Positions 16,907 to 32,758 of a stretch of DNA of 64,000 nt are shown one piece after another (the stretch's first letter is position 1; each line of letters opens with the position of its first letter). The translations under genes and the position numbers were made by a program. Origin of the DNA: Malacoplasma penetrans HF-2 (lineage in GTDB: Bacteria > Bacillota_I > Bacilli_A > Mycoplasmatales > Mycoplasmoidaceae); assembly GCF_000011225.1 (NCBI RefSeq), contig NC_004432.1:1-64000 (forward strand), given 5' to 3'. The notes beneath the pieces are model-generated. The model saw only the letters and a list, made by a program, of their open reading frames with translations, was not told where the DNA came from and ran no database searches.

Positions 16907-17114
16907 CTTTTAAGTACCAATTAAATATTAAAATTAAGAAAATTTATTGTTTTTATTAGCAAATTATTAAATTTTACTAAATTTTGTTAAATAAATTATT
17001 TTCCTTATTATGTTTTAATTTTTGTTATTATTAATAAGTTATATTGTATTTTTAGTTATTTAAAAGTTTTTACTAATTCAATTAAATAATTTTTCATAAA
17101 TAAAAGGTTTGACT

Positions 17115-18683
17115 ATGTATACTCAAGAAAATAGCTTTAATGTAAAAGACCTGAGGGTTTCTTTTAACAAAAAAGCAAATATTAGTAAAATATATGAAAA
17201 AATCCAAAAAAAGTATTCTTTAAGAGAAATAACAATTCATGCATTTGTGGGATACCACAAATTTAAAAAGAATACTTTATTGGTTTGTTTTAGCAATCAA
17301 AAGATCTTTATTGATGATGAAAAGTCTAAAGTATTTTTTTCTGGTGTCTATACATATAGAGATATTAAAGAAATTAAATATCACTGAAATGAAAAAAATG
17401 AACTAAAGTCTTATATTGAATTTATTACTGAAAATTACAATACTTTCAAAATCAAAGGTATTTCTAAAAGAGAATTTAACAAAATCTTAGAAGTTTTTGA
17501 TAAACAAAAAGAGATATATGTTAAATCTTTTTTAGAAAAGATCTCTTCTGATGAGAAAAAATTTGAATTAATAGATGAAACCTTTTCTTATTCTTCAGTT
17601 TCAAATTTTTTAAAAAATAATAAAAATCCAGAAAATAATACTAATAATGAGGAGAGAAAAGACTTAGAGAATATGATTTTAGATAAAAACTTAAATAATC
17701 CAGTACAAGATAGTAATCAAGAAGAACAAAAGAAATTAATTAACACTTCTTTAAATTCTGTTGATGAAGATAAAGAACCAATATTATCAAGTGATTTAAT
17801 TAACCAATCAAATCTTTTAGTTGAATCTCTAGAATCTCCTAAAAATAAAAAAGTAGTTAATGATAGTTTAATTACTAACACTAATTCTTTTAGTAGTTCA
17901 TATTTAGTTAATTTATTAACTAATGAAGACACTTTGTTACCAGGTGGTAAAAAAACAGTTGTTTATTATTTATCTAAAAAGATTAAAGAATTAGAATCTA
18001 AAAGTTTAGCAATTAACGGGATTGATACTACTCCTATTCATTTAGATAAGAAAGTATTAAAGTTAAACACAATCCCTGTAATTGTAGAAACTAAACCTAT
18101 TAGTATCCAATCTACAAATGCAGAAGATGAATTAGAAAACAGATTAATTTTTACTAGAAACTGAATTGAATACACTAAACATAATGTAGTCAACAAAGTG
18201 TTAGGTGTAGATGCTAATGGTAATGGAGCATATATTGACATCTCAAAAGCTAGTTCTACTAGCACAATAGATGTATATAAAGCTAGAGAATATAAGGTTA
18301 ATGATGAAGTTAGAAGTGGATTAAGATCTTCACTTACTATTCCTTTCTTTGAAAAAAACAGTAGACCAGGATTAGATTTTTTCTATAACAACTCTAAAAC
18401 TGGAGAAAAACTTAACATCACTAAATATGATGGAATCTTATTCCAAGGTGTTAAATACTATTTTAATGTTTATAATGAATTCTCTAAATTACAAAAGAAA
18501 TATATCAGAATCTTTGTAGAAGATAAAAAGAGTAATGGAGACATCTTTAGAAAATATGAACTAATTTTTGAAGATGACTCAGTAACATATAAAGCTTATA
18601 ATGAGAGATCTCACATAATTGATGATACTTCTCCAAATTCAAGCTCATATGATTTAAAATGATTAATGTTTTTTAAAGAATAA
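17115..18683 (+). CDS. Hypothetical cytoplasmic protein with PH-like N-terminal domain
   Basis: 522 aa with UGA Trp codons at 17385, 18162 and 18660. I do not recognise the family. Residues 1-150 are compact and strand-rich with a hydrophobic pattern (FVGYHKFKKNTLLVCFSNQ, then VYTYRDIKEIKYHW) reminiscent of bacterial PH-like domains; this is only a resemblance. Residues 175-290 are Asn/Ser/Glu-rich and probably disordered. Residues 300-522 form a second folded region. There is no signal peptide or membrane segment. ATG 17115 is preferred to TTG 17109, which lies too close to AAAAGG. Confidence 0.7.
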
Positions 18684-19773: not shown

Positions 19774-21469
19774 TGTTAATTTTATGTGACTTTGTCCCTA
19801 TTAAATAGAACTTGGAGCAACTAAATTATATCAATGAGAAAAATATAATTTAGTTGCTTTTTGATATTTTTGGTTTTTGCTTTTTATTGCTCAATTAAAT
19901 ATTTAAAGAAAGTTCAATTTCTCTAATTTTAATTTTTTCCTCCCTTTCTTTTAAACTGTCGCTTCATCTTTCTAAAGCTATTCTTGTGTTTTCATTTTTT
20001 TGATAAATAGCTTTAGAAGTAGCTATACTTTTTCTTTTAATTTTTTCTAATTTTAAAAACTCATTATCATGAATCTCATTTATATATTCGTTTAATAAAT
20101 CATCATTTATTTCTCTGGCAAAATATTTAGTATTTTTATCAAGTACAAATTTTTCACCCGTTAACATGTTGGTTCTTAATAAGATTTGATTTTTCATATT
20201 AACTCTTTTATCTTCTTTGGTGAACAAACCCATAGCCTTCCCATTAAGGAAAAAATAAAAACCTTTTAGAACTTTACAAATCTTAGTTGTATAGAACAAG
20301 TCTTTTAAATCATCTTTACTTATTTTTATGAATTGGTTTCTTTTTCCTTTTTCAGACTTTTTATATCTTTGATTGTAAGCATCAACAATTAACTGATAGT
20401 TCTTTTGTATTTTTTCTTTAGTATTCAAACCATGTTTTAAAAATAATTTGTAATAAATTTGTTGTGCATTTTTAAATGATCTTTCAACATTAGCTTTAAA
20501 AGTTGGTTGGCTTTCTGACTTAACTTGTATTTCTAGTTTATTTAAACAATAAGTTAAATTGGTAACTGAATTTTCAGATCAAAATGTTTTTCTTCTGTCT
20601 GTTTTTATAATGTTTGGAGCCCCATACTTTTCTAGGACCTGTTTAAGCAGTTTACAATACCCAAAATTTGTTTCCTCATCATCAATTCAAAAACCTAGTA
20701 ACTTACCAGTCCCAGCATCAATGGCATGGTATATGTAGTATTTTTTAATTCCTATTCAAACACTAACGCAAGCATCTACTTCAACTATGTGACCAAAATC
20801 ATAGTTGTGTTTTACATAAGGGGGATTTTTAGTTTTTAAATATTCTGTGTACGTTGGTTTATATTTTCTTAGAAATTCCAAAATTTTTTCCTGGATTTTT
20901 AACTCTGCTAAATTTCCTTCTTTAAGTTTTTTCTTCATAGTTTTTCTTGTGATCTTTTTTGAATATGAAGTGAGTAAAAAATTTTCATTTAGAAGTTTAT
21001 TTACAAATCCGTATTTAACATTAAACTTGTCTTTTATTTCATCTAAATAAAAATCTAAATGAGTCATTTCATAATGACCATCACTCATTTCTTTGCATGG
21101 AGTAGTTACTTCAATATATTTCTCTATAATTGCTCTTTTTACTTCATCTTTTATTTTGTTAACATTTTCCTTATTTTTGTTTTTATGGCTAATCAAAAAA
21201 GTATTATCTTTAAAACTTTTTATAAACCTTCTAGACTGTTTGATTGAATATCCTGTTTTATTACTTAAAGTTTTTGGATTTAACTTTCCTTTTTTATTCA
21301 AAGAACCCATTTCTTCTAAAATTCAGAACCTACTATTCTCAAATTTTGTTAAATTGTTTTTTATTATTTCTTTCATAAAAAAACACCTCACTAGATTAAA
21401 CTCCAAGAGGGACAAAATCACAAATAATTGATTAGTCTTTTTTAGGGACAAAGTCTTGTAAAATCCACA
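19774..21469 (-). mobile_element. Intact ISNCY (IS1202-type) insertion sequence, 1696 bp
   Basis: The element begins TGT and ends ACA. Its imperfect terminal inverted repeats are about 27 bp, containing the perfect 13-bp pair GACTTTGTCCCTA (19788-19800) and TAGGGACAAAGTC (21443-21455). It carries one intact transposase on the minus strand and is flanked by a perfect 37-bp duplication. Long target duplications are a known trait of IS1202-type elements. A second AGGGACAAA copy near 21410 is a subterminal repeat. It sits between galU and the surface-protein operon. Confidence 0.88.
19895..21376 (-). CDS. ISNCY-family transposase
   Basis: This is a 493-aa DDE transposase, intact when the TGA codons are read as Trp. 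N-terminal HTH segments (LSNKTGYSIKQSRRFIKSF) precede the catalytic core: EVDACVSVWIG with the first Asp, IYHAIDAGTGKLLGFWID, then KTDRRKTFW with the second Asp, and ANVERSFKN with the probable Glu. The spacing and wording match ISNCY/IS1202-type transposases. AGGTG precedes the ATG at 21376. Assignment to the IS1202 group rests on motifs and the long target duplication. Confidence 0.85.
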
Positions 21470-21633: not shown

Positions 21634-24378
21634 ATGAAGAGTTTGAATAAATCATTTATTTCTAAAAGAAAAAAAAGAAAGTTATTAGTTTTCTCTAGTA
21701 GCTTGTTTTCTATGTTTGCAATAGGATTAGGGTTATCTTTAACAAGTTCTTTATCACTTAATAAAGATTCAATCACTAGTGTTAACTCAAATTTAAATGC
21801 TTTGAAAAATACTACAACTTCTACTCAGTCTGCAGCTAATTTTACTGTTAATGCTGCACAAACACCTTTAAATAAAAAAGCAAATGAAGTTACAAACAGT
21901 GATATTCAAAACATTTTAACCCCAAGTGCCACTGTATCTTCTTATAATGTTGTTATATTACCAGTTACAGAAACCAATATTAATAAAGGTTATGTAAACT
22001 TTTTAGTTTATCAAACTTATTGAGATGGTTCACTAATGAAAACAGAATTTGCAGATGCATCTAAATCTATGAATACTGCAAATGGAGGGACACAAACAAA
22101 TTATCAAAGTGATGATACATATGATAATGTTGTCTTAAATGAATATGGTTTTACAAGTGGGGAGGCAACTACAAATCCTTCTACTACCAATATTTTTAGT
22201 ACTGCTAAAATAAATAATTTAGCAAATTGAATAACTGCAGAAAAATATAATATTGAATGAAAGAGTGATGAAGAATTAAAAACTTATATTACTAATTCAA
22301 CAGCAACAACATTAACTACAGAAATGTTAGTTAATAATTTTTTTAGCAATACAACAAACTTACCTAATTTAGCAACGAGTGGTAGTACAAACGCCAATAA
22401 TCAACCTTCTTCTACTACTATAACTGTTACATCAGTAGATAAAAACGGGAATACAGCAAATGATAGTAATTCTGTTGGTTTATTTAAAATTAAAATTCAA
22501 ATAAATCAAACTTCTAAATCAAATTGATTAAATGACAATTTTCCTACTGGTTCAACAGGTGGTGAAAGTGCAAATGGAAATGATGACAAAAAAACTATTA
22601 CTATTACAAAATATATTGGAGGTTTTAATACAGCTTCTGGACAAAGATATATAGTTGATATTGATTCTGAATTGCAAACTATTAGAAACTGAACAATTTC
22701 TGATACATCTTTATTTGATGGAGAATCAACTGAAAATAACACAGTTTCAAGTTTAAGACCATCACAATTTGAATCTCCATATGGTGGTAAAACTGCTTTA
22801 ATAAGTCTTTTTTCAACGGGGACAGGATTATATAGCACAGGAAATACTGTGACACCTATTGTTCAATATTCTTTTACAGAAAGCACTAATACAAAATACA
22901 ATTTCCATGATCCTTCTGCTTCAAACAATAATGGATCAAATGGAACTCAAGGATCTGGTCTTATTCAAGAAATCAACAACCAGAGAGAAAACATCAAAAT
23001 CACTGACATTACAACTATAGCAAATGATGTTGATGGAAGTTTAAGAATAATTATTAAGTATGATGGGTTCAGCATATACTCAGGAACTGTAGTATCTCAA
23101 ACAAAAACATATGATTATGTTGCTGGTACTTTTGCAACTTCTAGTCAACCTGAAAATTTATTCTTTTCTTGAAAAGATGTAAATACATTATCAGCATATG
23201 GATTAAATACACCTTCTGATATTGTTAATCAATTCATGAGAAATAACTCAAACACTGAATTTGTTAGAGTTTTTACTAATCAATTTATAAATGCTTCTTC
23301 TGAAATTCAAGCATTAAATAGAACAGCTACAATTTTATTTGGAACAGCCACTGGAGAAGATGCTCTACCAGAAACTAATAATTCTTTAAATGATCAAACA
23401 GGATTATATAGTCCAGGAAATAGTGTGAGTGGTAGATCTATTACAGTGAGACTGACTTTTGATAACTGAAATGGAACAACTCAACAAAAAGTTTTTCAAC
23501 AGAGTTTCACTTTCTCTGGTGTTAGTGACACTGGGACATATAGCTACAGTACTACTGGCAATACAACAGGGTATGATGACAGTCTTGTATTGACATGACG
23601 TTCAAATGATGCTGTATTAACTAATAATCCATCATTTGCTAGTACAACACCTTCAACTGTTGTTTACAATATTATGACTTCAGGAACTTCTACAAGTTAT
23701 TATGAAACTTTTGCTAGTACAAATAATAATGCTTCAGAAATAAGTGTTTCATTTGAAGCAAATGATGTTGATGGTTCATTAATAGTTTTTTTAACAAAAA
23801 CATCAACAAGCACTGATGCAAATATAAAAACCCAAAATGCTCATATTTATTCTCAATTATTTACAGGATTTAGAAAAACAACTGAAACTACTGGTGTTGT
23901 TTCATTTAGTTGAATACCTAATGAGGAAGTATCTGGAGCATTACAATCAATCCCTGTAAACAATGTTACTAAAGAAGATATTATTGAACATTATCTAAGT
24001 AATTCAGCATTGTTCCAAAATGGTGATTTAGGAACAGCTGATATTACATTAACACCAAATATTAATGAAAATTCATTAACAATAGAAGTTACAATGTCAT
24101 TCTTCAATCAAGATAATGTAACTACAACTAACAGAACTTTTGCTACAAAACTAACAGGTTTTGCAACATATCAATATACAAATAGCAGTTCATTTACACC
24201 ACCTAAAAACATGACAGCTGTATTTGCGATTTCAGCAGCAACAGTTTTATCTATTACACTAGGTGTTGTTTTATTAGCAATGCTATTAAAAAGAGCTAGA
24301 TTGAGAAACTTCAAAAGTTACCATGATAGTGTTTTAGAAAAGAAAGTAAAGAAACACACAAGAAGAACTATTAAATAA
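21634..24378 (+). CDS. Large surface protein with signal anchor and C-terminal membrane segment
   Basis: 914 aa with many UGA Trp codons. A basic start (KSFISKRKKRKLL) precedes a hydrophobic segment at about 18-40 and no lipobox Cys. The ectodomain is Ser/Thr/Asn-rich and repeats a module with the pattern (V)DGSL.I.(V/I)...(F).GF, for example near residues 470, 705 and 800. This resembles mycoplasmal lipoprotein-associated (Lipoprotein_17-type) domains. One membrane span (about 862-884) and a short, strongly basic cytoplasmic tail end the protein. The next surface gene starts 27 bp downstream. Probable adhesin or surface scaffold; function inferred. Confidence 0.75.
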
Positions 24379-24404
24379 AAACAAAATAAATATTGGAGAA
24401 AATT

Positions 24405-27400
24405 ATGAATAAAAAATTAAAAAATAGATTATACATTTCAACATTAGCTATTTCTTTAACTGGAACTTTTGCGGCAATTGGTTCTGTTGCTTTGCCTAGT
24501 TCTTCTTTCAACAACTCATCAAGTAGTGAAATTTCAAGTGTTTCTAAAAATTTAAATGCAGCCACAACAACAGCTGCCACTCCTAGAGCAACTAGTGAGT
24601 ATGTTGCTTCTTGAAATATAGGAACTCAAGATATTAATAATTTAAATTCTCCAATTCAAAACATAGCTTTTAATACTTCAAACACTCAATATGCTTTGTT
24701 AACAACTGCTGAAAGTAAATATGACAACAGTAGTTATTCTATTACTTCAAGAACAACAGAAGAAAATGTAAATTTTAATGCATTATCTGTTTTCAAAATG
24801 TCAGATGGTTCTTTAAGTTGAACAAAAAAAGCATCAGATATAAAATTAAGTGCTACAAGAGTAACTTCATTAGTTACAGGCTCTAAATTTGTTGCAGTAA
24901 CTTATTTAGATTCTTATATGGATAGAGAGGCTTATTATCTGGCAGTAGTTCAAGGTAGTGATAATAAATATTATTTAGTATTTTTAAAAGAGGGAGATAC
25001 AACAAATTTTTCTCCTGAAAAAATAAAATTAAATGCAACAGGGGCAGGAGCAGCATCTTCAAGCTCAACTTCTCAATTTTATATAAATGTTGTTTCTTCT
25101 AGTAATTGAGATATTAATATTTATCAAATTCAAACTGATACTTCAGGTAGTAGCAATAACTTAGGTGTTAATTTATTTGATTTAAAAAATAATGGTTCTA
25201 CTAGTACAACAGTATCTGCATCAAGTTTAAGTGTTTCTAATAATTTTGCTAGTATTTCTTCTGAATTATTAAGTTCTTACTTTTATAAAACAAATGGAGC
25301 TAAAATTTCATCTAAGCTTACAAAATCATTTAAAGATGATGATTATGTTTATTTTGTATTCCAACAAGAACCTGCAAATGTAACTGCAGCAGATTTTAAT
25401 AATTTTGTTTCAATCTTAAGACTTCCTCTTTCATCTCATGAAATTACAATTTCATCTGAATCTTTATATAGTTTAAGTTTAAGTTCTCAACAAGTGGATG
25501 TAATTTTAGGAAGTGCAATAAATAATTATAGACCAAGTGTTGCTATTGCTTCAAATGGTGATCAACATACTGTAATTTTGTCTAGTAAAAATTCTGATAA
25601 ATATTTTTATTCTGTTGTTGAACCAGATATGTTCAATAATTCTGACCCTGCAACATTTAATGAATTAACTTCAACTGATTCTGCTTATATAGTAAGTGTT
25701 AATCCAATATATAATTCAGATTCTTCAATTAATAGTTATGTTGCTTTATTGAGCAATAACAAAGCTATAAGAATTAATTCTGATTTTTCAGCAATTAGTT
25801 TAATGTATGATTTCACAACATTAAATGCAACTACATCTAAATTAATATTTAACATTTTTACTATTCCTGGAGATGTTAACTGATATGCTCAAATGACTGA
25901 TGGTAAAATTATTCAATTTAATGGGACAAACCTTATTGGGGAATTAGGAAATACTGCAGTTTCAAATAGAAGAGAAAATAGTGCCAATGTTGTTTTATTA
26001 CAAGAAAGTCAAATTTCTTCAGAAGTTTTATTCCAAAAAGTTACTGATAACTCAAACACTAGTCAGGCATCAGATTATTTTAAACAATATGTAACAAGCA
26101 ATGTAACAAGTTTTTTACAGATTAATTCATATGATACAGCTTTTGGGACTCCGTCTTTCACTGCTGATGTAAAAACAGTGTCAAAAATTGGATCAACAAA
26201 CAATTATAGTGTTACTATTGCTTTTTCACAAAATATAAGACAAATGACTAATGGTAGTATACCTACTACTGCAACTAGTAAAGTTCTTTTTGCAACTCAA
26301 ACTTATACTTTCATTAATGAAAATTCTAGTATTACTGTAAGAGATAGAGGGAGTGTTTCTGCAAGCATCACAGGTAAACTACCAAGTGAAATTACAAATG
26401 CAGATGTAGCTTCAATATTAAATTTCCAAAATGTTGGAAATTATTCATTAACACTTGATCCAAATGACACACAAGGGATTTTAACTGTACAAGTTAAATC
26501 TGATGCTGTTTGAATAAATGGTAGTTTAGAAACTAATAATGTTCAAACTATTACAATTGGAGAAGAAAATAATCCATACTTCAAAGTTGATTTATTCAAT
26601 GGATTAAGTTCTAACATTGATTTAGTAACTCAAGATTATATAGATCAATCAGCAAATGCTGCTTTAAAAACAACTCTAACAAATAAATATTCCACAACAT
26701 TAGCTTCACAAGTTACAGCTCAAAATATTGTTGATGACTTCTTAGTTTATGGTAATGCATTTAGTAGTGCTCAATTAACTGCTAATAATATTATTCAAAG
26801 ACCAACAGCTGATAATGTTCAACTATATCCAATGGATTCAGAAGGACAATTATATGTAATTGTTACTGTTCCTAAAATTGGGGATAGAACAAATGTGGTG
26901 TATTCATTCACAACAGCAGCTATTTTTAGAAAAAACTTTACTACTAATCACAATGTTTATTTAAGTTTTAAACACAACAATACTGTATTAAACACAACAC
27001 ATACTGTTACTACAGGTGGTTCAACTACAGAAACTCAATTAAGTACATTAACACCATCATCTATTGTTAGTTTAATAAACTCTAATAAAAGTTTATTGTT
27101 CTATTTTATGGATATGTCTAATTATGTGTTTAATATCTTGGCTAACTTAGTAGACAATAGTAATAGTGAAGCAGTACTAACTATTGCTCCAAGTGATCCA
27201 TTAGGTACAATTACATTTACAATTAATTTCCAACAACAAATTCCTGGATTAGATTCTTCTTATAGCTACACTTTCTCAGGGTTTACAACTGCTAATACTA
27301 ACTTATCTGGTAGACCACAACAAATGCCAGGTTTTAGTTGAGGTACAATACAATCAACAGCACTAAATGGTAGAAAACCAACTGATATTACAAGTGAGTA

Positions 27401-28433
27401 TTTAGAACAAAACTTTTCAACTTTATTTGTGTATACAAACAATGCTAATCAATTAGATCGTGATATTACTGTAACACCATTGAATGGTAGTGGTGGAGTA
27501 TTAGTTACTATTACTTTCTATGATTGATGAGAAGAACAAACTAATAATGGTCAAACTACTTATGTAAAATTAGCTCAAAAAACATTCTCAACTATTATTA
27601 AGAGTGGTCTTTCTCAATCAAGAGAACCAATTAATGCTGTTGTTTGAAAATCATTCTATCAATTATCAACTACAAACAATGCATATACAACAGGTACTGC
27701 ATCAAATGCATTAACATTAATTAATTCAGTTGCTACAACTGAATTAGAAAAATTAGATTTACTTGCAAACATTTCTGATTACTTTAGAAATAATGTTCAA
27801 ACAGCACTACAAAGTGATCCAAGTGCATTATCATTATCAATTGTTCCAAATGATAATGAAGGAACATTATCAATGTATGCAGTTGTTAAATTAGATGGAC
27901 AAACATATAGTTATAGCAGTGTACTATCTGGATTTAATCTTAATGGTGTAGATTATTCAGTAGTATTAGCTCAAGAAACTTCTGATGCTGTACAAGCATT
28001 AAAGAGTTCATTACCTTCTAACCTAACAGAACAACAAATTGAATCTCTTGTGAATGTTAGTGTGGGAAATGGTTTAACAAAAAACATTCAAGTTACATAT
28101 GATGATATTAAAGGTACATTATCATTAACTGTAAGCTTATACAAAGATGGTCAAGTAGTTGCTACAACTACTAGAGATTATTCAGGATTCTCAACAAGTA
28201 CAATTGTTTATAATGGTACAAATGCATTAATTATAATAGCAGCAGTTGTAATTCCTATTATTCTGTTATTAACTCCAATTCTATACATCTCATTATTTAA
28301 AAATAGAAGAGATATTAAAAAAGTTTCTAAAGTTCTTGATAAGAGATTATCAGAACAAGCTGTTAAGAAAAAAGTTACTGAAGTTAACACAATTGCAGAT
28401 CTATTGAATTTAGAAACTGACAAAAACTGATAA
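24405..28433 (+). CDS. Very large surface protein with repeated lipoprotein-associated domains
   Basis: 1342 aa with numerous UGA Trp codons; GGAG precedes ATG 24405. A signal-like segment (about 8-30) has no lipobox. Residues about 65-500 may form a repeated beta structure with recurring short W-containing strands. At least four later modules follow the pattern LP(S)...(I)...(PND)..G.L.(V)........(F/Y)SGF (near residues 660, 880, 1145 and 1220), resembling Lipoprotein_17-type domains. A membrane span at about 1272-1294 and a charged cytoplasmic tail of about 45 residues end it. Its architecture is the same as that of the preceding protein. Confidence 0.75.
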
Positions 28434-28476
28434 AAATTAATATTATTTACAAACAAATTATAAAGAAAGGGAAATT

Positions 28477-31400
28477 ATGAAAAATACATTAATATTTCTA
28501 GTTACTGAAGGGATAGGGTTAAACAAGAAATGAAAAGGAAATTATTTAAAGTTAGCTAATAAACCTAATATTAACTATCTAATTTCTGGTATCTATCCTT
28601 GAGCATTATTATCAAATGATAGAAAAAGAAATAAGTATATTCCTAAAAAAACTTATCCTTCAGTTAAAAGAGATGTAGATTCTAACTTTTATGAAATGTT
28701 ATATGGTGAAACAGACATAAAAACATACTTAGAATTATTAGATGAACAAATTAAAAGTAAATCTTTACACAACCTAGAAATATTTAATAAACTAATTGAC
28801 CGTTCTAATAAAACAAATTCAAAAATAGTTCATATTTTCTCAATGTTGTCTTTTAATGAAAATAAATTTAATGCTAAAAATTTATTTTATGTTATCAATG
28901 TCTTAATTAAAAAAGGACTAAAACCTGTTCTTCATTTAATTGCTGATGGTCAAGATGAAAGACCTTATAGTTTTAATAAAAACTTATCAAATTTCTCTAA
29001 ATTCTTATTAAAAAGAAACACACCTATAGTTACTGTAGCTGGTAGAAACCATGTCTTTGGAAAAAAAGGTAGAGACTTTTTAGACAATGAACATGTAATG
29101 GATTATTTTGAAACAATCTGTGGTTTAGGTGAACAAGCTTTTACTGAAGCTAGTGAATATACTAATGAAAACCTAGCAAATAAAGTAATGGATGCTGATA
29201 TTCTTCCGGCATACAATACAATCATGGATGGATACTTTGTATCTAAAGATGACAGTGTATTATTTTTAAACAGTGATCCAGATGATTTTGCTTCACTTGC
29301 TAGAATGATGAAAACATCACCTAAATTAAAAGGATTATTTTTATCAAGTTTAGCTCCAATCTATGGAACAAAATTAGATGCAGTATTTTTTGAAAACCCT
29401 GTTAAAGGTAAAGAAGAATCATTATTAGCTAACATGGTTGCTAAAAATGATAATAAAGTTTTAGTGCTTGGTTTAAACCATAAAAAAGGATTTATTAATA
29501 AATTTTTTGGTGAAAATACTAATAATGAAAACATAACAAGAAAAATACTATCAAGTCCTGCATGTACTTCTGATAAAGAATACTTCTCTTTATCTTCAAA
29601 AATGTTGATTGATAAAACAATAGATTCAATTGGTAAGTATGATGTTATTTTTGTAATGTGTCCAATGATTGCTGAAGCTGCAAGATCTTCTGACTTAAAA
29701 CAACTATTATCTACTATTGAAACATTTGACCAACACTTAGGAAGATTAATTAACCTATGTAGATGTACTGGTAACATTATTGCTCTAACTTCAGCTTATG
29801 GTGCTGCTGAAAAGATGTTAGATAAACACTTAAATATTGTTCCACATAACAAATCTTCTTTAGTTCCATTTGTGTTTACTAATGGAGATCTATGACCTAA
29901 GAAAATGCAAAGTAACTTTTTAGGTGTATATTCTTCAATCTTATCAACTCTAGATTCATTAGATACTGAACATAAATTGTTCTACACTTCTTTAATTGAT
30001 CCTAATTTTACAAAGAGTAAAATTGAAGAATCATTAAATGATATGTTCTTAATTTGAAAAGAAACAATTTCAGATGACTTAATTAAAAGTTTTGAAGATA
30101 ACAAATTAAACTTTTATAGTGAGTTTTCAAAAGATGAACAATTCTTAAGTGAAAAACAAAAATATGTTGTTCTAAAAGAAATTATTGAAGTTAATAAAAA
30201 AGTTTTATTAACTCCAGAAGCTAGAAAAAAACTATACAATGTTTTAATTGATTATGTTGAATACAACAAAATTGACTTTGTTGGTTTAGACATTAACTAT
30301 AAGAAAACTTTCCAAACATTGTTTGATAAAGAAATTAAAATGTTAAAACTTTCAAAATTATCTAATAAATATTTTGATAAGAAAATTTGAATTACAAACT
30401 TTGTTAGAAATGATGAATGAATTAACTCAATTAAATTTGATTTACTAGAATCATCAAAAAGAACATTTGATGTTGATAAAAATGAGAAGTTTAGTACTAG
30501 AGTTTACAATGAAATGATTCCTTTCTTATTCTTTGAAAAAATAAGAAAATCTGAAGTTGAAATCTTAAAAACTAATGATGCTGTTTCAATTGCTCAATTC
30601 TATGAATTGATTAAAGAAGAAGTTAGAGATATTTTTGAACAATATATCTTAGATAAACTTCCAGTTGAAAGTGAAGATGCAACTGATGAAGTAGTTGAAG
30701 AAGAAAAATCACCTGAACAAATTGCTACTGAAAAAGCAGTTCATTCAATCTCAGTATATTTTGATTACTTTGTAGAAGTAGTTGATTTAATTAGATATGA
30801 AAGAGATTATCTTGAAAGCTTCAATAGAAGATATAAAGAAACTCAAGAACATCTTGCTAAACAAAACAAAATATATGATTCAACAGATATCTTTAATGTA
30901 CCTGAAATTGCTTTAAACCCATTAACAGCTAAAATTGTTTCATTAATTAGACTTTATAAAAGTGAATTGAAAAGTCATGCTAAAACAGAAAAAACTGAAA
31001 ATAAGAAAACTATTTACAAGTTTGACATGGCATATTCAACAAAAATTGATATTGCAAAACAATCAATTGCATATGATGGTGAATTTAATGAAGAAGTAAA
31101 CTTAAAGAAACAAGATGAGTTTGAAAAGAAATTTGCTGAGTATGTTGAAGTTTACAAAGAGTTTGATAACACTGTTATTGAATGAGAATCAGATGAAGAA
31201 AAAGATGATGAGTATTCAATGGATGATGAAACAATTGAATATGATGAAAATGGTAACCCAATAATGGTTGATAAAATTGATACTAAGATCAAAACAAGAC
31301 CTGAGTATGATTTAACAGAAGTTTGAGTTCAAAAAAGAATTGATGAATACAACAATGTTGATAACTACAAACCAAATATTGCAGTAGATGCTATTAAACA

Positions 31401-31512
31401 ACTTGATAAAAATAAACAAACTAGTGTTGCTAAAGCTAGACTTAGAGATTACAGCAAACTAAGTGAAGTATGAAAAAAGACAGCCCAATCTGAAACGGAA
31501 AATAATGGATAG
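28477..31512 (+). CDS. Phosphoglycerate-mutase-like pseudoenzyme with long helical extension
   Basis: 1011 aa with UGA Trp codons. Residues 1-480 follow the order of cofactor-independent phosphoglycerate mutase (iPGM), but catalytic elements are altered. The first metal-binding LDGWG is VTEGIG (9-14). The GNSEVGH segment with the phosphoserine is absent. DGRD is DGQD (Asp157 region). GRYYAMDRD is GRNHVFGKKG (about 189). NpDMVGHTG is CPMIAEAA (about 395), and TADHGNAE is TSAYGAAE (438-445). Residues about 480-1011 are acidic, Lys/Glu-rich and mostly helical, with no family match. AAAGGG precedes the ATG. It lies 43 bp after the surface gene and 8 bp before the TPI-like gene. Confidence 0.75.
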
Positions 31513-31520
31513 GAGATAGT

Positions 31521-32438
31521 ATGAGAGAAAAAATATTAATTACTAACTGAAAAATGAATGCTGACTATGTGTCAATATCAAAATTCTTTAAAAATATACC
31601 TAATTTTGAAAATGTGAAAGTAATGGTAGCACCATCTTATTTAGGTATTGTTCCAAGTTTAGGGATGTCTAAAAATGCAAAAGTAGAAGTGGTTGCTCAA
31701 AATGTATCATTTCCTTCACTTGGTAACCATACTGGTAGTGTTTCTTGATTGGAATTAAAAGATTATGGAATTAAAACTGCTTTCTTAGGTCACCCTGATG
31801 TTAAAGTAGATTTCAAAGAAAAAAACTATCAAGTTAATGCTAAACTTCAAAAACTTCTTAAAAATGGAATGAATGCTGTTCTTTTTATTGAAGAAACAAA
31901 AGTAGATTTGTCTGAAGAAAGTACTAAAGAAAACTTAAGATTACAAATTAATCAAATTTTTAATGGGATTGATGCATTAGATATAGTTGATAGAGTTTAT
32001 ATAGTTTATAAACCAACTTTTATGGGTGAGATTAATTCTAAGTTTGACAATGAATTTATCTTTGGAACTATAAGAGTTATTAGAGAATTCTTAAGAACTA
32101 AATTCGGATACTATGTTGCTAATAATTTACCAATTCTTTATGGTGGTGAAATTATTAATGATGATATTGAAGAAATTTGTAAAAACAATGATGTTGATGG
32201 AATCTTAATTGAAGATGAAAGAGCATTATCTAACAAATATATTTCAATCTTATACAAACACTTATTCAATGGTTCAACATATGCATACAAACAACATTAT
32301 GATCATAAGGTTGCATTAGATATTCCTACTGAAGAAGAAAGAATTAAAAATGCTACTCAAGTTTCAGACTTTGATATGTATGACATTACTAGTGAAACTT
32401 ACTTTGATGATATTAAGATTAATGAAGAAAACATGTAA
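31521..32438 (+). CDS. Triosephosphate-isomerase-like protein with catalytic Glu replaced
   Basis: 305 aa with two UGA Trp codons. TPI landmarks are kept: TNWKMN (Lys11), AQNVS, FLGHPDVK (His91 at the catalytic His position) and LPILYGGEI. The motif YEPVWAIGTG that carries the catalytic base reads YKPTFMGEIN, so Lys164 replaces the Glu and loop 6 is lost. GHSERR is GHPDVK. A tail of about 45 residues exceeds the usual 250-aa length. Activity is unlikely. AGGAG precedes the ATG. It is the last gene of the surface-protein/PGM-like unit and precedes a terminator. Confidence 0.8.
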
Positions 32439-32461: not shown

Positions 32462-32487
32462 AAATAGCTTAACAGCTATTTTTTTTA
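32462..32487 (+). terminator. Rho-independent terminator after the TPI-like gene
   Basis: Arms AAAATAGCT (32462-32470) and AGCTATTTT (32475-32483) with loop TAAC and T run. Confidence 0.85.
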
Positions 32488-32758
32488 TTTCTTTAAAGCA
32501 AGAAATTTGAAAGAAAAAGGAAAGAATTTTGAAAGATTTAGGAAAAAAATAAAAGAGCATTCTAATTTTATAATTTATTGTTACTAAACAAATCTCATTT
32601 GATTTTTTATTAACAATAAATAAAAGGAAATAAAAATAATAAAGAATAACAAAATTTTTAAATTATTAATTAGATTGTTCTTATCTATAAAATTGAATTT
32701 ATAAAAAGAGTATAGTTTATATATAATAATTGAGATATTGAAGAATTAGTAGATTGTT

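Follow-up and report, generated by a model that had tools for sequence, protein, structure and literature searches.

A conserved Malacoplasma operon joining two surface proteins to two enzyme-fold paralogues, a candidate attachment complex

Gene organization and flanks of the operon

Why would two large surface proteins of Malacoplasma penetrans be encoded together with two cytoplasmic proteins whose folds are those of glycolytic enzymes? The question was raised by a locus in the window, by which we mean the first 64,000 nucleotides, forward strand, of the M. penetrans HF-2 genome (contig NC_004432.1), a genome consisting of a single contig of 1,358,633 bp. Four plus-strand reading frames, open under translation table 4, span positions 21634-32438 with intergenic gaps of 26, 43 and 8 bp. 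The gap of 26 bp assumes that gene 2 starts at the ATG at 24405, a start that is backed by the orthologues. The features of the locus are as follows.

21634..24378, plus strand: surface protein 1 (gene 1), 914 aa; N-terminal hydrophobic segment, ectodomain, transmembrane (TM) helix at about 863-881, basic 30-aa tail
24405..28433, plus strand: surface protein 2 (gene 2), 1342 aa counted from the ATG, or 1346 aa from a TTG at 24393; propeller of seven blades (predicted), repeat stalk with PF04200 domains, TM helix at about 1275-1293, conserved basic 45-aa tail
28296..28430, plus strand: cytoplasmic tail of surface protein 2, with the motif K-x-[ILFV]-[AS]-[KN]-x-L-x-x-R-L-x-[EQ]
28477..31512, plus strand: pseudoenzyme (gene 3) with the fold of cofactor-independent (2,3-bisphosphoglycerate-independent) phosphoglycerate mutase (iPGM), 1011 aa; residues 1-500 iPGM fold, 501-1011 acidic all-helical extension
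31521..32438, plus strand: pseudoenzyme (gene 4) with the fold of triosephosphate isomerase (TIM), 305 aa; E167 replaced by K, acidic C-terminal extension of about 60 aa
about 32463-32490, plus strand: probable intrinsic terminator, a AAATAGCT-TAAC-AGCTATTT hairpin and then a T run (TTTT), read by eye

A terminator scan found no plus-strand terminator-like sites within the operon. With just two G-C pairs in its stem, the hairpin 3' of gene 4 escaped the consensus scan. The coordinates, the hairpin with its T run and the empty internal scan agree with the sequence-only reading of the locus, which had described four plus-strand genes with these gaps and a terminator past the last gene only.

The downstream neighbours of the operon are cysS and rlmB. 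Upstream, on the minus strand, lies an insertion sequence (19895-21451), and relatives have none at the same place. Its transposase had an ISNCY-like match in NCBIfam that was under the model cut-off. A 99.4% identical transposase copy at about 1035998-1037554 lies beside a tandem cluster of three surface protein 2 paralogues, and the same mobile element therefore adjoins both surface loci. Further upstream, positions 17109-18683 encode a 524-aa protein without a Pfam match that also stands ahead of the operon at six other loci of the genus (L035, L036, L037, L038, L039 and L041); at some loci of the genus a nucleotidyl-transferase gene lies between its gene and the operon. This protein may belong to the operon's system.

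Loss of catalytic residues in both cytoplasmic proteins

Gene 3 matched the Pfam families iPGM_N and Metalloenzyme above their cut-offs, as expected from its earlier description as phosphoglycerate-mutase-like, and scored far under the NCBIfam equivalog cut-off for a working enzyme. The iPGM part of the structural model aligned with the solved iPGM 1o98 over 412 residues (Z 19.4, rmsd 5.0), which indicated an iPGM fold. The whole model was of low confidence (mean pLDDT 53.7), and for this reason only its secondary structure was usable. The extension (residues 501-1011) is acidic (pI 4.9) and predicted to be all-helical, with helices of 45-50 residues, and no sequence relatives of it were found in the PDB. 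At about 505 residues it is somewhat shorter than the roughly 530 extra residues first estimated.

The residues that define iPGM are largely missing from the protein (numbered as in the Bacillus enzyme). The GNSEVGH nucleophile motif (Ser62) is absent, the metal ligands D403, H407 and H462 are replaced, and D444-H445 is A-Y or P-Y. The D12 position is occupied by E, or by D in one genome, and H123 and the substrate-binding R261/R264 are also lost.

Gene 4, previously called triosephosphate-isomerase-like, earned that name by its match to the Pfam TIM family, which was above the cut-off (E 2.4e-37), and it too was far under the NCBIfam equivalog cut-off for a working enzyme. PDB TIM chains matched it at E 4e-31, so that the sequence profile indicates a TIM fold. 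Catalytic E167 is K in 10/10 orthologues, the loop 6 motif WAIGTGK is replaced, phosphate-binding S213 has become E (D in one genome), and GG has become acidic or Asn residues. Its C-terminal extension, of 60 residues, is acidic as well (pI 4.6).

Neither protein is an iPGM or TIM enzyme, because the defining residues were tested and are missing. The sequences of the iPGM-like and TIM-like orthologues, in which key catalytic residues are gone just as a single sequence had suggested, give good support to a loss of catalysis in the two paralogues. The pseudoenzymes share folds and homology with iPGM and TIM enzymes, but differ from them in these losses and in having gained helical and acidic C-terminal extensions.

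Some of the residues were kept: the R185 and K336 positions in the iPGM-like protein, and N11, K13, H95 and the TG-containing loop 3 in the TIM-like protein. Such retention would be in keeping with pseudoenzymes that regulate glycolysis, as inactive TIM/iPGM partners or metabolite sensors, and merely share a transcript with the surface genes. We consider this quite unlikely, as the proteins lack R261/R264, H123 and the TIM phosphate loop, their operon includes the surface pair without variation across the genus, and a 505-aa helical extension would be unneeded for such a role.

Working copies and selection on the pseudoenzymes

At 482 kb the M. penetrans genome carries separate, working tpiA and gpmI genes as neighbours, with eno after them, and the active site of this gpmI is intact. 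Separate copies had been anticipated from the operon sequence, and their presence rules out the operon copies as the sole gpmI and tpiA. The tpiA-gpmI pair was present in seven congeners, and the same adjacency was found in several other genera. Two metagenome bins (G005 and G003) had no tpiA, gpmI or eno but retained the pseudoenzyme pair and phosphoglycerate kinase. As the three missing genes form one adjacent locus and the kinase is present, we favour an assembly gap over gene loss.

In the tree each pseudoenzyme formed one clade with support of 100/100 and a long stem, indicating that the sampled genus inherited both from its common ancestor. The genes of the two working enzymes are themselves neighbours, and it is possible that both pseudoenzymes arose from one duplication of the adjacent tpiA-gpmI pair. 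The order of the pseudoenzyme genes in the operon is reversed relative to tpiA-gpmI.

Between genomes G007 and G004 dN/dS was 0.005 for the TIM-like gene (99.7% identical) and 0.052 for the iPGM-like gene, compared with 0.085 for tpiA, 0.052 for gpmI, 0.088 for cysS and 0.123 for rplA. The comparison of G006 with G008 gave 0.041 and 0.059 against 0.084 (tpiA) and 0.065 (gpmI). Purifying selection on the pseudoenzymes is at least as strong as that on the working enzymes (0.005-0.059 vs 0.052-0.085), and these ratios rule out decaying duplicates. The surface genes had dN/dS values of 0.149-0.195.

Selection of this strength might also be expected if the paralogues were enzymes with a new, metal-independent activity, and K164, H91 and K11 are invariant in the TIM-like pocket. 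That alternative appears highly improbable to us, since both metal sites and phosphate sites are lost and no pathway is hinted at by the genome.

Conservation and restriction to Malacoplasma

Loss of the gene order, like a lack of separate gpmI and tpiA, would have counted against the sequence-only reading; instead, all nine congeners have the four genes in the same order on one strand, to the extent that their contigs cover them. Most of the congeners sampled are metagenome bins; in one genome the four-gene set is divided between contigs L041 and L042, and contig L043 starts within the iPGM-like gene. The conserved order in nine congeners rules out chance co-location of the four genes. Identity to M. 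penetrans for genes 1-4 was 48, 49, 67 and 72% in a near species and 29, 32, 44 and 44% in a distant one, and across the distant clade it fell to 28-33% for the surface orthologues and to 41-46% for the pseudoenzymes. Genes around the operon were gained or lost among the congeners while the four-gene order persisted. In three distant genomes a second tandem surface pair lies beside the four-gene set, giving one pseudoenzyme pair per two tandem surface pairs, with the tail motif in all.

The surface pair was identified in 10 of 95 genomes of the family and the extension of the iPGM paralogue likewise in 10 of 95, all of them Malacoplasma. In the 85 other family genomes the iPGM-paralogue extension was missing, and the search for the surface pair gave nothing but weak domain-level matches in two genera. 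In a scan of 84,980 species genomes the long iPGM paralogue was exclusive to Malacoplasma; the remaining matches, in Tissierellaceae and Clostridia, covered the enzyme part only. The suggestion that the same operon might be found in Ureaplasma did not hold, as the long paralogue and the surface pair occurred in no sampled genus of the family except Malacoplasma. The operon is a real, conserved and lineage-specific system.

The surface pair

By hydropathy, each surface protein has an N-terminal hydrophobic segment and, towards the C terminus, a single TM helix with a basic tail behind it; the pI of the tail is 11.5 for the 30 residues of surface protein 1 and 9.9 for the 45 residues of surface protein 2. 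This agrees with the initial view of two anchored surface proteins with short basic cytoplasmic tails. They had also been said to have the same architecture, which stands for the C-terminal halves, as these are homologous (hhalign 98%), while a propeller was seen for surface protein 2 only.

In the model of surface protein 2 (residues 66-1262; mean pLDDT 74.4) the first 450 residues hold 28 strands, the number expected of a propeller with seven blades, and the N-terminal part is predicted to adopt this fold. Among the fold matches listed, WD-type propellers were the best (Z 18.7, rmsd 4.0, 290 aligned), with propeller lectins (Z 17.3, rmsd 3.9, 311 aligned) and the Met chain (Z 16.6, rmsd 4.5, 337 aligned) close behind. 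The fold is uninformative on the ligand. After the propeller the stalk consists of alternating beta/alpha domains, several of which are PF04200. Identity of surface protein 2 between clades was 0.23 for the propeller, 0.32 for the stalk, 0.49 for the tail and 0.56 for the tail core.

The tail motif was common to every surface protein 2 paralogue compared, and within M. penetrans it was limited to the four members of this family, as would be expected for a dedicated cytosolic partner. Membrane insertion or sorting could account for part of the tail conservation. Away from any pseudoenzyme, M. penetrans also encodes four surface protein 1 paralogues and three more of surface protein 2, the latter bearing the tail motif, and the partner of the tail could therefore be something else.

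The four surface protein 1 paralogues, of about 880 aa each and with near-identical tails, are in tandem at about 462043-473187, and roughly 9 kb separates them from the working tpiA-gpmI-eno genes downstream. The three tandem surface protein 2 paralogues (about 1037799-1050640) also have near-identical tails; the 5'-most seems to be interrupted close to its 5' end, and a separate fragment lies ahead of it. This cluster may be a reservoir for surface variation.

The existence of tandem paralogues elsewhere, together with surface genes that evolve about three times or more faster than the pseudoenzymes, would suit co-transcription only, in which variable surface antigens happen to lie upstream of two structural cytosolic proteins and form no complex with them. 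We regard this as very unlikely, because the four-gene order outlasted divergence to about 30% identity amid turnover of neighbouring genes, and because conservation in surface protein 2 peaks at the tail.

Proposed function of the operon

As the pseudoenzymes lack the residues for catalysis and yet are as strictly preserved as the working enzymes, the operon is a strong candidate for an attachment or gliding machine. We propose, with slightly better than even confidence, that its products form an envelope-spanning attachment complex specific to Malacoplasma, which most probably belongs to the attachment or gliding organelle. The two surface proteins, surface protein 1 sharing the stalk-TM part of surface protein 2, would act as a pair and form an adhesin complex. 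Their basic tails would dock on a cytoplasmic platform of pseudo-TIM and pseudo-iPGM, in which the enzyme folds may serve as rigid assembly modules with no catalytic role. The acidic helical extension of pseudo-iPGM might then tie complexes to each other or to the internal material of the organelle, and the pseudoenzymes could form an internal lattice. A more specific and tentative version, to which we give clearly less than even weight, is that the operon is the core of the Malacoplasma gliding/attachment machine, a surface pair with no sequence relation to known mycoplasma adhesins, coupled by its conserved tails to an internal lattice of pseudoenzymes.

We infer a physical link among the four products. 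The joint membrane-spanning adhesion or motility apparatus proposed from the sequence has gained support from the co-occurrence of the genes, selection without catalysis, the layout, the peak of conservation at the tail and the precedents considered below; the joint function itself is something we still infer. The functional reading is good but unproven.

Comparison with known systems

The closest parallels in layout are the Nap complexes (P1 with P40/P90 in M. pneumoniae and P140 with P110 in M. genitalium), in which two large single-pass surface proteins are likewise made together. P110 has a seven-bladed propeller-type N-domain (PMC6203739), and surface protein 2 has a predicted N-terminal propeller-type domain, a C-terminal TM helix and a cytoplasmic tail, as Nap adhesins do. 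Identity between P1 and P40/P90 of M. pneumoniae rises from N-domain to tail (12, 17 and 43%; PMC7560827), and conservation of surface protein 2 rises similarly from propeller to stalk to tail. The surface proteins of the operon, like the Nap pair, are mutually homologous in the membrane-proximal part. In contrast to Nap, the Malacoplasma stalk has PF04200 domains and two enzyme-fold cytosolic proteins share the operon. Searches of Pfam and the PDB gave no sequence match of the surface proteins to the P1/P110 families; Pfam P1_N matched no control genome, and a search with that model is uninformative here. No mycoplasma adhesin was among the 50 chains listed after fold comparison, although this does not prove absence. 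As modelled, the operon appears to resemble the Nap adhesin complex in layout, and no relatedness by sequence was found.

The complex might instead do another surface task, such as immunoglobulin binding, nutrient capture or secretion, with cytosolic modules in the manner of MIB-MIP. Propellers bind many ligands, and the MIB-MIP surface system requires an atypical F-type ATPase (PMC12994834). By analogy this is conceivable but unlikely, as no protease or immunoglobulin-binding domain was identified by Pfam or NCBIfam and the layout is closer to that of the adhesins P1/P110.

For the attachment complex that we favour, precedents from M. mobile and M. penetrans make an adhesin-on-pseudoenzyme-platform mechanism reasonable. 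The M. mobile motor is F1-ATPase-derived (the G1-ATPase twin motor) and contains phosphoglycerate kinase (PMC11864180, PMC8406192), so that its gliding machine also has metabolic-enzyme folds as internal parts, a glycolytic enzyme among them. However, the M. mobile kinase MMOB4530 still has the residues of its active site and is presumably the working enzyme, whereas both Malacoplasma proteins are inactive paralogues with working copies elsewhere. No F1-like (type 2) ATPase paralogues were found among the operon genes or the scanned flanking genes. In Spiroplasma, the N-terminal part of the fibril protein is derived from MTA/SAH nucleosidase (PMC9582952). The fibril is similarly a mollicute protein, in this case cytoskeletal, with an enzyme-derived N-terminal part and a long extension, but it uses a different enzyme fold from those of the Malacoplasma pseudoenzymes. 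The pseudoenzymes also have surface proteins encoded with them, which the fibril is not known to have.

If the proposed function is correct, the operon would be a clear bacterial case of two glycolytic-enzyme paralogues jointly made into non-catalytic parts of a surface apparatus, and would widen the reuse of enzyme folds in mollicute motility and cytoskeleton beyond F1-ATPase, phosphoglycerate kinase and fibril. M. penetrans glides with a machinery that has no obvious similarity to those of other gliders (PMC9282661). Our analysis names four candidate genes for this gliding that can be tested together. In one report, M. penetrans gliding is said to be resistant to inhibitors of ATP and ion-gradient energy; as a lead only, this would be compatible with a machine that has no classical motor enzyme.
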